33,266 nt of DNA from Desulfovibrio sp. (lineage in GTDB: Bacteria > Desulfobacterota > Desulfovibrionia > Desulfovibrionales > Desulfovibrionaceae). The notes under the pieces were generated by a model. That model was not told the DNA's origin. It saw only the letters and a program-made list of their open reading frames with translations, and made no database searches. The position numbers and the translations under genes were made by a program. Shown here in pieces: positions 959-32,997 of this stretch. The stretch covers positions 1 through 33,266 of the forward strand of contig JAISZH010000052.1 of NCBI GenBank assembly GCA_031269345.1, read 5' to 3'. How positions within the stretch are numbered: the stretch's first letter is position 1; each line of letters starts with the position of its first letter.

Positions 959-2959
959 TCAGCGTTTCCTCGAGTTGTCCAGTTTGGACAGTTTGCGCCG
1001 CACTTCTTTGAGATTTGCGGCCTGGCGCTGGATGGCCTCTTTGTAGCCTTTGGCCGCCTCATCCTTTTTGCCGAGGGCCAGGGCAATGTCCCCGTAATGC
1101 TCCCATATGACCGCATCGTCCCCGCCCAGGCTTATGCAGCGGTTTATGTTCACCCAGGCTTCGGAGTGCCGCCCGAGGCGATACAGAACCCAGGCCAGGG
1201 AATCCACGATGAAATCCGCTTCCGGATTTTGTTCGAGAGCCTTGGTGACAAGCGTAAGAGCCCGGTCCAGTTCGACATTCATGTCGGCCAGGCTGTACCC
1301 GATATAGTTCAGGGCCTGATAGTTTCTCGGGTTTAAGGCGATAATCTCTTCCATGGTCTGCATGGCCGCGTTTTTGTTTCCGATCTCGTCTTGGATGTTC
1401 CCCAGGGAAAAAAGCAAGTCTTCGTCTCCGGGATATTGGCGTAGCGCTTCCATGAGGACGGCTTCGGATCTGGCGGCTTTTTTCAGCTTGGCCAGCGCGA
1501 AGGCCTCGATGCCCCAAAGGTCCTTGCGGTCCGGGAAAAGCTTGCGGCCGGCATGGGCCGTCTTGCGGGCGTTCTCATAATCCTTGGACTTGAGATGGAT
1601 GCGGGCTTTTTGCTCAAGCGCCGCGGGATAAACCGGGCTTTGCGGCTTGATGCCCGCAAGCGGCGCAAGCCAGGATTTGGGATCGTTCGAGCTTTCCTGT
1701 TTGATCATGGACAGAAAAAGGGCAACCTCATCAGCGTCCGCGCCTTTTTCCTGCGCCTGTTTGAGGAGCGCCTCCGCCTGCTGGTAATGGCGTTCCCCGG
1801 CGAAGCGCATGGCGGCCTGTATGAACTGGCTGGCGTTCAATTCAGCGTTTTCAAGGACGCGCATGGCCGCATCCGGTTTTTTTTCTTTCAGACGCAAGGT
1901 GATGATGCGCAGGTACACTTCCTTGTTTTCCGGCATCAACCGCGCCGCTTTTTCGTAAGCTTCGACAGCCGCCGCGAGGTTTTTGTCACGATCTTCAAGG
2001 TAGGCCAGTTCCAGCCAGGCTTCCGCGTACTCCGGCTCTTTTTTCAGCAGTTCACGCAGCAGTTCCTTGGCTTCCCCCGTCCGCCCCACTGTGGACAGGA
2101 CGCCGGCGCGGAAGAGCTCGGCCTCGGGCGACGTATCCGTTTCCGGCAGGATTTTCAGAAGTTCCGCGGCTTTTGTGTTGTCGCCCTGCCTGATGTAGAT
2201 GCGGATCAGTTCTTCCTGAATTTCCCTGTTTTCCGGATTTTTGGCGAGGGCCGCTTCAAGCAGGGCCATGGCTTTGCCGCTTTCTGCTCTTTCGTTGTAC
2301 ACTCCGGACAGGAGCAGGCAAAGCAGCGGGTTGTCCGGAAATCGCTCAAGTCCCGCAAGGGCCGTCTTTTCCGCCTCTTCCAATTCCCCGCGTGAGAGCA
2401 GGATGGCCGCGCCGTCCTGAAATACGGGCAGAGAGGGGTCGAGGCTGATGAGGGCGTTTATGGCCCAGATCACTCCTGTCCGGGTGTTGTCGAAAAGGCT
2501 TTGCGAGAGCGCCAGATAATAGAAAAAGCGCTGGGCTTCCGGGCTTATCCCCCAAGAGGAAACATCCGGGAGGGCGTCTTGCGTCTTTGTCGTGGCCTCG
2601 TCCGGCAGAGGCTTGTTCCCGTGGCTTGCGGAGAAGGCGGAAGGGCAAAGGAGCAGGCAGAAAAACGCCGCGAAACATGCCAGAGCAATTGGCGCTTGAA
2701 ACAGTTCGCTTACGGCGGACAAAGCCCGCCTGCTCCTGTTTCGCGGCAGGGGTTTGCGCTGCAAATCCTTGCAGAGCAGTTCACTCGTTTCATTCGTGAA
2801 CTGCTCTGGAGCAATTGACGCTTGAAACAGTTCGCTTACGGCGGACAAAGCCCGCCTGCTCCTGTTTCGCGGCAGGGGTTTGCGCTGCAAATCCTTGCAG
2901 AGCAGTTTATTCGTTTCATTCATGAACTGCTCTGGAGCGTTGTGTCGTCGGTTCGGCAT
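959..2959 (-). CDS. Tetratricopeptide-repeat protein with repeat-element-derived N-terminus upstream of a hydrophobic signal-like segment
   Basis: 666-aa ORF with many TPR-like helices (e.g. [34 protein letters not shown]); ATG overlaps the TAA of the upstream sigma factor gene (TAATG); hydrophobic segment [21 protein letters not shown] at about residue 90. Confidence 0.85.
2681..2809 (-). repeat. Interspersed element family 1, copy A
   Basis: Tandem with copy B at 126-bp period; shares CAAGGATTTGC.GCGCAAA, GGCGGGCTTTGTCCGCCGTAAGCGAACTGTTTCAAGCG with copies at 22.4 kb. Confidence 0.85.
2805..2940 (-). repeat. Interspersed element family 1, copy B
   Basis: Near-identical tandem copy of A; 126-bp period preserves reading frame. 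Confidence 0.85.
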
Positions 2960-4035
2960 TACTGTTCTATCCAGTCACGTGAAAAGTCCTTGATGTTCGC
3001 AAGCAGATGATCGCGCGCCTTTTGCAGAAGCCGGGCCTCGATCTGCCGGACGCGTTCCCGTGTGATATGAAAAAAGTCGCCTATCTCCCGGAGAGTGGCT
3101 GGTTCATCCGTCAGCAGCCGGTTGTAGAGGACGTATTTTTCCTTGTTGCTGAGCCGGGGGAGCAGGGATTTCAGTCGCTCGCGCACAAGATGGGCGATTT
3201 CTCTGTCGGCCAGAATTTCCTCTATGCCCGGACCCAAGGCCGGCAGGTAGTCCATCCTGGTCGCGCCACCGGAATTTTCATCTCCCACTTTGGCGTCCAA
3301 GGACGTATCCGCGGCATCCAGGCGTTGTTCCATTTCGATTATCTGTTCTTCCGATACGTTAAGGTGCTCGGCCAGGGTCGAGGAATCCGGCTCAAAGCCC
3401 TGGGCGGTGAGCTGCTGGCGTTCCCTGTTCAGATTGTAGAAAAGCTTGCGCTGGGTCTGGGTCGTGCCGATTTTGACCATGCGCCAGTTATCCATAATGA
3501 ACTTCAAGATATAGGCCTTGATCCAGAAGGCGGCATAATAGGAGAATTTTATGCCCTTTTCCGGATCGAACTTGCTGACGGCTTTTACCAGTCCCACATT
3601 GCCCTCCTGGATCAAGTCCAGGACATTTTGCATCCAGCGGCGTTGAAAGTCCATGGCAATGCGCACTACCAGGCGCAGATGGGATGAAACAAGGCGGAAG
3701 GCGGCGTCGGGGTCGCCCGTGTCGCGCACCTTGCGGGCCAATGTGATTTCCTCATCCGGGTTGAGCAGGGGAAAGCGGTGGATTTCCCGCAGATAGGTGT
3801 GGAGGCTGTCACGGGTTTTTTCCGGCGGTCTGTTGACATATGGGGTCAAGGCATCCTGAGCGGCAGCGGCAGAAGAAGGCGGGGCGACCGGGTGGGGATC
3901 GTCCCCGTTGTCTTCCAAATCTTCGGTCAAAAGCGGGTCTTCCTCAAAGAGATCGACTGTCTCCCCGGAATCCTGGGAATATTCTTCTTCGGTCTGTGGC
4001 GCCGTTTTGCAGGCGGCCTCGGCTCGCATGGTCAT
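2959..4035 (-). CDS. rpoH: RNA polymerase sigma-32-like factor (RpoH family)
   Basis: Region 2 DLIQEGNVGLVKAVSKFDPEKGIKFSYYAAFWIKAYILKFIMDNWRMVKIGTTQTQRKLFYNL and C-terminal HTH TLREIGDFFHITRERVRQIEARLLQKAR. Confidence 0.85.
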   Translation of the reverse strand: MTMRAEAACKTAPQTEEEYSQDSGETVDLFEEDPLLTEDLEDNGDDPHPVAPPSSAAAAQDALTPYVNRPPEKTRDSLHTYLREIHRFPLLNPDEEITLARKVRDTGDPDAAFRLVSSHLRLVVRIAMDFQRRWMQNVLDLIQEGNVGLVKAVSKFDPEKGIKFSYYAAFWIKAYILKFIMDNWRMVKIGTTQTQRKLFYNLNRERQQLTAQGFEPDSSTLAEHLNVSEEQIIEMEQRLDAADTSLDAKVGDENSGGATRMDYLPALGPGIEEILADREIAHLVRERLKSLLPRLSNKEKYVLYNRLLTDEPATLREIGDFFHITRERVRQIEARLLQKARDHLLANIKDFSRDWIEQ

Positions 4036-20190: not shown

Positions 20191-22350
20191 ATGGCCAAAG
20201 TGGAAAAACGCAAATTTCGGACCGAGACGCAGAAGGTTCTGAATATTCTCACACATTCCCTTTACACGAACCGGGAAATATTCCTGCGCGAGCTGCTCTC
20301 CAATGCCGCCGACGCCTTGGAAAAACTGCGTTTTACGCAGAGCGGGGGAGGAGAAGTGCGCGAAGCCGGGCTGCCTCTGGAAATCAGGGTGAGCGTGGAC
20401 AAGATCTCCGGGATTTTGCAAATCACCGATACGGGTCTTGGCATGAGCGAAAGCGAACTTGTGGACAATCTGGGCACAATCGCCAGATCCGGGTCCGAAC
20501 GTTTTCTCGCGGATATCCGGGCTGAAGCCGTCGGCAGGGATGAGGCAGCGCCGGGAAAAGGGACCGGGGCGGAAGAGGTAGCGCCGGGTAAAGGGACCGG
20601 GGCGGAAGAGGTAGCGCCGGGAAAAGAGGCCGGGGCGGAAGAGGTAGCGCCGGGAAAAGAGGCAGGGGCGGAAGAGGCCGCGCCGGGAAAAGAGGCCGCC
20701 GGGGAATCCCATCCGGGGCAAACGGAGGATGCTGCCGGGCCGAAACCGGATGGCGATGCCGGTGAAGGCGCTTCAGATGCTGGAGGAGAGATCGGCGGAC
20801 AGATTATAGGACATTTCGGGATCGGCTTTTACTCCGTGTTCATGGTTGCGGATTCCGTGGAGGTTGTTTCCCTGCCCGCCCGGGGAGACGCCGGTCCCTG
20901 CCTCTGGACGTCAGACGGAGCAAGCGGTTTTTCCGTCCGGCGCCTGGAAGGGGAGGAAGCGGCAGGGTATCGGCGGGGTACGACCGTCAGGGCCAAGATC
21001 AAAAAAGACGCAAGCGAGTTTTTGGAAAAATACCACTTACAGTCTGTCATCCGCAAACATTCTAATTTTCTGCCTTTCCCGATTTTTCTGGAGGACGAGC
21101 GCTTAAACTCCACCCCGGCCCTCTGGCGCGAGCCGCGCTCCAGCGTCCGCAGGGAACAGTATGATGAATTCTACAAATACCTCACCTATGACGAGAAGCC
21201 GCCTCTGGACGTCCTCCATATCTCCGTGGACGCTCCCGTCCAGTTCAACGCGCTGGTCTTCATCCCCGACAGCGAGCAGGATTATTTCGCCCTGCAGCAG
21301 GAGCGCTGGGGATTGGATCTCTACGCGCGCCGGGTGCTGATTGAGCGCGCGAACAAAGATTTGGCGCCGAATTATCTTTCCTTCCTGAAGGGGGTGGTGG
21401 ACACAGAGGATTTGCCTCTCAACATCTCGCGCGAGAACTTGCAGGAAAATCTGGTGTTGCGTAAGATCTCTCAGACTCTGGTCAAGCATGTATTCAACCA
21501 TCTGGAAAAGATGGCCGAGGCGGAGAGCGGCCGCTATGAGTCTTTCTGGAAACTGCACGGCAAATATTTTAAATTCGCCTTCAACGATTACGTGAACAAA
21601 GACCGGGCGGCCGCCCTGATGCGTTTTCCCTCTTCAGCGGCTGAAGGCGGCTACATCAGCCTGGACGGCTACATCAGCCGCGCCAAACCCGGCCAGAAGG
21701 AAATCTGGCATGTTTCCGCCCCCTCGCCTGAAGCGGCCAAGGTGAACCCGCATCTGGAACGGTTTCTCCGCAAGGGAGTGGAAGTGCTTTATCTGCTTGA
21801 GCCGGTGGATGAATTCGCGCTGGAGGGGCTTGGCAAATACAGGGATTTCAGTTTCAAGTCCGTGGAGCATGCGGATGGAGCGGCCCTCGACGCTTTTCCG
21901 GACGTGGAGGGGGTTGCGTCCGCGCCTGCGGCTTTGAGCGGAGAGGAAAAGGCCGCCGCGGATTCTTTGCTTGCGCGGATGGGCGCGATCCTCGGGGACA
22001 AGGTCAGGGAGATACGGGTTTCGGATCGCCTGGCGGGCAGTCCGGCCGTGCTGGTTTCGCCGGAAGGGCTTTCCTCGTCCATGGAAAAACTGATTCGCGC
22101 TATGCGGAAGAACGACGAGGCGCCGGCTAAAATTCTGGAAGTCAACCCGGAACATCCGGTTTTGCGCGCCATGGCCCGTATTTGCGCCAAGGATCCGGAC
22201 AGTGACCTGCTTGCGGATCTGACCTTGAATCTTTTTGACAATGTGCGGCTTTTGGACGGCAGTCCGGACGATCCGCAGCTTATGGCGGATCGCGGCCTTA
22301 AGCTTATGGGCCGGGCGCTTTCCTGGTATACGGATTTGTCGGGCGTCTGA
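20191..22350 (+). CDS. htpG: Hsp90-family chaperone HtpG with repeat-rich insertion in the N-terminal domain
   Basis: EKRKFRTETQKVLNILTHSLYTNREIFLRELLSNAADALEKLR; TDTGLGMSESELVDNLGTIARSGSERFL; IIGHFGIGFYSVFMVAD; VDTEDLPLNISRENLQ. Confidence 0.95.
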   Translation: MAKVEKRKFRTETQKVLNILTHSLYTNREIFLRELLSNAADALEKLRFTQSGGGEVREAGLPLEIRVSVDKISGILQITDTGLGMSESELVDNLGTIARSGSERFLADIRAEAVGRDEAAPGKGTGAEEVAPGKGTGAEEVAPGKEAGAEEVAPGKEAGAEEAAPGKEAAGESHPGQTEDAAGPKPDGDAGEGASDAGGEIGGQIIGHFGIGFYSVFMVADSVEVVSLPARGDAGPCLWTSDGASGFSVRRLEGEEAAGYRRGTTVRAKIKKDASEFLEKYHLQSVIRKHSNFLPFPIFLEDERLNSTPALWREPRSSVRREQYDEFYKYLTYDEKPPLDVLHISVDAPVQFNALVFIPDSEQDYFALQQERWGLDLYARRVLIERANKDLAPNYLSFLKGVVDTEDLPLNISRENLQENLVLRKISQTLVKHVFNHLEKMAEAESGRYESFWKLHGKYFKFAFNDYVNKDRAAALMRFPSSAAEGGYISLDGYISRAKPGQKEIWHVSAPSPEAAKVNPHLERFLRKGVEVLYLLEPVDEFALEGLGKYRDFSFKSVEHADGAALDAFPDVEGVASAPAALSGEEKAAADSLLARMGAILGDKVREIRVSDRLAGSPAVLVSPEGLSSSMEKLIRAMRKNDEAPAKILEVNPEHPVLRAMARICAKDPDSDLLADLTLNLFDNVRLLDGSPDDPQLMADRGLKLMGRALSWYTDLSGV
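20542..20706 (+). repeat. Five 33-bp tandem units inside htpG (fifth degenerate)
   Basis: Units start at 20542, 20575, 20608, 20641, 20674: GAGGTAGCGCCGGGAAAAGRGRCCGGGGCGGAA, encoding EEVAPGK(G/E)(T/A)GA. Confidence 0.95.
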
Positions 22351-22365
22351 CGCCGATTTGCGTTA

Positions 22366-22622
<257 letters not shown>

Positions 22623-23622: not shown

Positions 23623-23770
23623 GAGCATTGTACCTTTGAGATGACGCACCCCCGGCCCTCTCCAGCCTACGCCCGCTCCGGCGGTTAACAGCGCAAATAA
23701 ATTGCGCTTACGCCTCTGTAGCGGGCGTCCGCCCTCGCGGTCGCCAGAGCTATTTTAAAGTGAAATTGCT
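23622..23770 (+). repeat. ~150-bp interspersed element family 4, copy 1
   Basis: TTTGAGATGACGCACCCCCGGCCCTCTCCAGCCTACGCCCGCTCCGGCGGTTAACAGCGCAAATAAATTGCGCTTACGCC...GCGGGCGTCCGCCCTCGCGGTCGCCAGAGC matches the reverse complement of 32724-32873. Confidence 0.85.
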
Positions 23771-30252: not shown

Positions 30253-30597
30253 GTGATTTGCGTCATCTAAATATTACAATATAGCCTTTTCAATGTGATC
30301 CTGCATCATCCGTGGTAAATTGCCAAGCAATCGACTTTGGCGTCTTGTTTCTCTCGGCTTCCCAAGCGGCCGATTCACTCCGAAATGTTTCTATCTTCTC
30401 AATGCGTCGGCCAAGACACTGCATCGCCATAATGTTGATTTCAATCTCCGCGATGTCCAACCAGCTTCCATGCTTCGGAGTTCCGTCCATCATCCCATCA
30501 TCCGTGGGCGTTATGACATATTTTTTCGTTCTCATGTTTTGACTCATCCTTTTTTTAGATGAGTCTAACATATCAATATCTTAGATGGCGCAAATCA
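30253..30597 (-). mobile_element. Internally deleted IS630-family-like remnant with terminal inverted repeats
   Basis: TGATTTGCGTCATCTAAATATT at 30253 versus AATATCTTAGATGGCGCAAATCA ending near 30595; encloses a transposase C-terminus. Confidence 0.6.
30267..30571 (-). pseudogene. Decayed C-terminal fragment of an IS630-family DDE transposase
   Basis: TPKHGSWLDIAEIEINIMAMQCLGRRIEKIETFRSESAAWEAERNKTPKSIAWQFTTDDA; an apparent 1-nt deletion then restores RITLKRLYCNI* in another frame. Confidence 0.7.
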
Positions 30598-32723: not shown

Positions 32724-32873
32724 AGAGCAATTTCACTTTGAAATTGCTCTGGCGGCCGCGAGAGCGGACGCCCGCCGCGAAGGCGTAAGCGCAATTTATT
32801 TGCACTGTTAAACGCCGAAGCGGGTGTAGGCTGGAGAGGGCCGGGTGCATCATCTCAAAAGTAAAATGCTATA
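32724..32873 (-). repeat. ~150-bp interspersed element family 4, copy 2 (inverted relative to copy 1)
   Basis: AGAGCAATTTCA-CTT-TGAAATTGCTCT hairpin then GGCGGCCGCGAGAGCGGACGCCCGCCGCGAAGGCGTAAGCGCAATTTATTTGCACTGTTAAACGCCGAAGCGGGTGTAGGCTGGAGAGGGCCGGGTGCATCATCTCAAAAGTAAAATGCT. Confidence 0.85.
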
Positions 32874-32997
32874 GAGCGTGTTAACTTTAATTGTTAACAC
32901 GCTCTACAGGGATTTGCAGCGCAAATCCTTGCCGCGAGATGCTTGCACGCGGGCTTTGCCCGCCGTCAAGTGAGCATCTCAAGCGTAAATGCTATAG
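32861..32997 (+). repeat. Interspersed element family 1, copy E (stem-swapped variant)
   Basis: AGAGCGTGTTAAC-TTTAATT-GTTAACACGCTCT, GGATTTGC-AGC-GCAAATCC, GAGATGC...GCGGGCTTTGCCCGCC...GCATCTC; bounded by GTAAAATGCTATAG / GTAAATGCTATAG. Confidence 0.8.

Follow-up and report, generated by a model that had tools for sequence, protein, structure and literature searches.

Short palindromic repeats that are read in frame within bacterial proteins are already known from the RPE, ERIC/RU-1 and QMITE families. The Rickettsia palindromic elements (RPE) are short palindromic dispersed repeats of ~150 bp that lie in frame in unrelated protein genes (PMC10969869). The ERIC/RU-1 (127 bp) and RU-2 repeats of enterobacteria are MITE-like and open in a frame. 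They are mostly intergenic with occasional in-frame fusions, and YPO1552 of pestis is named in the context of in-frame RU fusions (PMC2759123). QMITE1 and QMITE2 of Coxiella are MITEs that have inserted in frame in genes or have extended genes at the C-terminal end (PMC5896051). A search for literature on Desulfovibrio and miniature inverted-repeat elements found no relevant report.

The repeat described here, from a Desulfovibrio genome, represents a new family when set against these systems, RPE having been compared by description. As with RPE, in-frame insertions in unrelated genes (encoding a TPR protein, a lipoprotein and CopA) can be set against empty orthologs. Nevertheless, the lineages are unrelated, only 3 of ~180 sampled places are internal and in frame as opposed to the unusually high in-frame frequency of RPE, and the Desulfovibrio element prefers sites just past stop codons. 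ERIC/RU-1 has a similar length (~127 bp), MITE-like character and open frame, but its hosts belong to another phylum, and the present case differs in having empty orthologous sites in a sister species and an insertion within an existing signal peptide. The QMITE elements differ in organism, and the functional-gene example quoted for them, EnhC, is a C-terminal extension (PMC5896051). MITEs of the IS630/Tc1-mariner type resemble the element in its short terminal inverted repeats, its absence of coding capacity and the TA at both ends of 12 of 23 single copies. The one DDE_3 transposase copy tested, in the host genome (L243), was rejected as an IS630 parent, as it is not flanked by the ends of the element.

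The TPR gene and its junction with the sigma factor gene

The window, i.e. the whole 33,266-nt stretch analyzed, carries on its reverse strand an alternative, RpoH-like sigma factor gene (2959..4035), recognized by the Pfam families Sigma70_r1_2, r2, r3 and r4. It lies upstream of a gene encoding a TPR protein of 666 aa (959..2959), which was assigned from its ORF, its TPR families and the sigma adjacency seen in relatives. The sigma stop TAA overlaps the TPR ATG (TAATG). From this ATG the ORF reads through MPNRRHNA (2936..2959), with which the n-region of the signal peptide still begins, and then through two 42-residue blocks. These are encoded by a first-read repeat unit (2809..2934) and a second-read unit 97% identical to it (2683..2808), each of 126 nt or 42 codons, and the 84 repeat codons are free of stops. 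Next come the hydrophobic core and the c-region (2625..2682), which complete the signal peptide, and then the TPR domain; all of these features are on the reverse strand. The junction sequence therefore bears out the preliminary description as regards the coupled TAATG, the two tandem 126-bp copies in frame with their quoted translation, and the placing of the hydrophobic signal-like segment after both repeats. That account also put the displacement of the export signal at about 90 residues. The displacement holds, whereas its size is refined: 84 codons were inserted, and the hydrophobic core starts at residue 95 compared with residue 24 in the sister species, a shift of 71 residues and not 84 because the sister n-region is ~15 codons longer than the flank-joined sequence of the window.

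For the TPR protein, AlphaFold predicts a superhelix mostly with pLDDT >90, preceded by a disordered stretch over residues 1–86 (pLDDT <50). The best bacterial structural match in Foldseek is LbcA (8sxf_C, TM 0.54/0.64), a lipoprotein of the outer membrane that partners the CtpA protease (PMC8764530); the two proteins have a TPR superhelix and an export signal in common. Orthologs of the TPR protein carry export segments or lipoboxes, and most of those outside the genus have a lipobox. From this distribution and the LbcA match, the protein probably needs export. Comparison with the sister species gave dN/dS values of 0.25 for the mature TPR region and 0.15 for the sigma factor; the former shows purifying selection on the TPR gene as an average over both lineages, from which a very recent loss of function would escape.

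Structure and copy number of the element

The repeat is a short dispersed, MITE-like element of 124–126 bp without a transposase of its own. At least 57 matches were found in the 2.63-Mb host genome, a draft of 203 contigs, and matches occur in 15 of 15 genomes of the genus, so the repeat in the TPR gene is not a chance feature. In an alignment of 45 near-full copies, which were sampled rather than collected exhaustively, the core GAGCAGTT...AATTGCTC forms terminal inverted repeats with GAGCARTT ends. Both ends are flanked by TA in 12 of 23 single copies. The consensus folds into stacked hairpins, with a z-score of −6 to −7 for the folding, and units are frequently found in tandem. The loop of the second hairpin has 3 nt instead of 2 nt in 12 of the 45 copies, both TPR copies included; the extra base yields a unit of 126 nt, a multiple of three. 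Units of this length are mostly open in just one of six phases.

Each TPR unit has the other as its nearest copy (5 differences in 125 columns), and the two have one base in common that is absent in 43 of 43 other copies, which favors duplication in place as the origin of the pair. Elsewhere in the window, on the forward strand, an intergenic tandem pair is located 16 nt after htpG (22367..22601), and a diverged partial copy (78%) is found at 32901..32990. The htpG gene itself contains internal 33-bp tandem repeats (20492–20706, forward strand) that encode 11-residue blocks (EEVAPGKGTGA) in the chaperone.

Searches for a known family were negative within their scope. Rfam gave no match to the element at E values up to 1. 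The repeat-encoded peptide had no Pfam or NCBIfam match above cut-off and no match in a plasmid collection, and a match to ESPR (extended signal peptide) with E 0.013 was below the cut-off and was not accepted. No match to RAYT (Y1_Tnp, PF01797) was found in the host genome, which is 92% complete, and an assignment to REP/REPIN was rejected since the genome is without RAYT.

Filled and empty sites in related genomes

The relatives compared were Desulfovibrio MAGs and isolates, whose sample names point to a termite-gut origin. The sister species is Desulfovibrio sp. Roe453_bin138 (G006). Its TPR protein is 86% identical and has the same TAATG, a matching start (MPKRRH, continuing as MPKRRHHPP) and a homologous export segment, without the element. 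This comparison of the sigma–TPR junction, which the preliminary description had proposed as a check, yields a common MPxRRH start on an element-free background. Joining the flanks in the window without the element restores a normal-looking signal peptide, from which it follows that the element separates the n-region from the h-region. The insertion point would thus be between these two parts. The greater length of the sister n-region makes it possible that a deletion accompanied the insertion.

Two further in-frame insertions were found in the sister species. Its lipoprotein carries the element in the tether (AACAASPLPP[42 aa]LEEERTK as against AACAVPALPLDEERAK in the host), and at the nucleotide level this is an exact 126-nt insertion facing an exact empty site in the host genome. 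A length of exactly 126 nt fits 124 + 2, but the flanking dinucleotides are CC and TT. In the CopA-type ATPase of the sister, the element lies in frame in the stretch that links the membrane part to the C-terminal HMA domain, whereas the host ortholog is without it. Filled and empty sites between the sister species therefore run in both directions. The three internal insertions agree in unit length (42 codons), orientation and phase. The common phase needs no selection on the peptide, as it is essentially the sole open phase of a frame-keeping length. Together with the empty TPR site of the sister, these two insertions support the earlier proposal that the repeat entered the gene and, in the manner of RPE, was turned into coding sequence.

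Location of copies relative to genes and stop codons

Gene calls around the copies were made with a codon-usage ORF caller trained on the window. Among 42 places in the host genome, all besides that in the TPR gene lie between genes, save one that overlaps a low-scoring ORF. In the relatives, 87 of 89 places are intergenic. A gene interrupted out of frame by a copy might have been counted among the intergenic cases. Overlaps at L168, L269 and L291 were judged to be spurious, reflecting a low-scoring ORF or a start called too far upstream. Copies within 60 nt of an upstream gene are oriented in sense in 55 cases versus 7 in the opposite direction. The upstream stop falls exactly on the first three bases of the element at 16 of ~131 places, being TAG in 15 and TGA in one, a diverged copy (L130). 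The 5' TAG of the element serves as the stop of the upstream gene at L143, L146, L153, L157, L158, L164 and L169 in the host and at L115, L116, L180, L183, L210, L215, L227 and L240 in the relatives. Such an overlap would be expected if the element targeted the TA of the stop codon and began with G.

The TPR insertion follows this habit, being in sense and 24 nt past the sigma stop. The element ended up inside the TPR gene because that gene begins at the same stop. At three host loci (L143, L150 and L163), the element closely precedes the start of a gene. Read-through frames at these loci and at L145 were rejected as coding insertions, a normal start being present downstream of the element. 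A different contribution to a protein was seen in G013 (L114:961-1612), where the element supplies the last residues and the stop codon, i.e. the C-terminal tail, of a cysteine-rich protein.

Proposed history of the insertion and alternative explanations

The observations are probably explained by insertion of the element in the TPR signal peptide, doubling with the frame kept, reading from the coupled ATG and continued export of the protein. A TA-flanked, non-autonomous, palindromic MITE-like element would have landed in sense 24 nt past the sigma stop, between the charged MPNRRHNA start and the hydrophobic core, and would then have undergone tandem duplication in place. As read from the ORF, the TPR gene is intact and its frame was kept because both units span 42 codons and have no stop in that phase. 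Translation is predicted to run from the conserved sigma-coupled ATG through the 84 element codons, so that the n-region would be long, disordered and positively charged (net charge +8 over 90 residues). Export would continue, and any cleavage that still takes place would remove the insert along with the signal peptide, so that the mature LbcA-like periplasmic TPR protein would be unchanged. Survival of such insertions would depend on the 126-nt form with the 3-nt loop, which makes up about a quarter of copies and alone preserves the frame, and on sites that tolerate a disordered peptide, such as a signal n-region, a lipoprotein tether or an interdomain linker.

Start codons within the repeat offer a different reading of the same ORF. 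Downstream of the first ATG and ahead of the export segment, in-frame starts are present in the form of an ATG in the first unit (codon 13), which is absent from other copies of the element, and a TTG in each unit preceded by AGGAGC. The second-unit TTG (TTG TCC GCC..., ~10 nt past AGGAG) might be where the exported form begins, which would give a signal peptide of conventional length and leave the repeat as a 5' leader, and the copies just upstream of gene starts at the three host loci named above are in keeping with such a role. Nevertheless, this TTG sits in a GC-rich hairpin and the resulting n-region has no positive charge. Moreover, the ATG over the sigma stop is kept in 8 of the 10 closest relatives (in one of the others it is 3 nt and in another 65 nt further on), and translation initiated at 2959 can proceed into the TPR domain without encountering a stop codon. 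The exported form is therefore judged improbable as a product of the TTG, and the suggestion of the preliminary description that translation now starts inside or after the repeat appears less likely than a start at the coupled ATG. The internal starts, at the ATG of the first unit or at the TTG after AGGAG, may be additions to it, with weaker support.

The insertion could also have abolished export, leaving the TPR protein cytoplasmic or degraded and the gene decaying towards a pseudogene. With its start at residue 95, the hydrophobic core lies past that of all relatives examined (72 orthologs, median 14.5, maximum 66), and export may be weakened by this. Complete loss is unlikely given a frame open over 666 codons, the dN/dS of the mature part, the positive charge of the n-region and the several differences between the units that have introduced neither a stop nor a frameshift. 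An assembly artefact, in which short-read assembly bridged separate contigs by way of the repeat, has in its favor that the draft consists of 203 contigs with many copies near contig ends, and the tandem copy number could be wrong. The join itself is right because the sigma and TPR genes are also adjacent in relatives without the element; in addition, the TPR units bear both shared and private substitutions, and an artefact is hardly credible.

The in-frame insertions of this element extend coding palindromic repeats beyond Rickettsia and the gammaproteobacteria to Desulfovibrio of presumed termite-gut origin. An 84-residue insert between n-region and h-region constitutes a natural test of how much n-region length the export machinery tolerates. 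A simple route of repeats into proteins is suggested by the capture of stop codons together with a length rule, by which the units seen inside genes are all of 126 nt. A more speculative idea, regarded as rather doubtful, is that the element is a sense module adapted to gene ends, whose 5' TAG regenerates stops and whose 126-nt form supplies a 42-residue disordered linker, with insertions in secreted or modular proteins being kept and sometimes used, possibly by altering TPR export.

A second palindromic repeat family was observed in the window at 23651–23770 and 32726–32845, with copies of 120 nt that are 90% complementary. Sequence similar to it occurs near the IS630-type gene in L243. The ORF at 30290–30571 on the reverse strand resembles the C-terminal end of an IS630-type (DDE_3) transposase and, by eye, is like the L243 copy.
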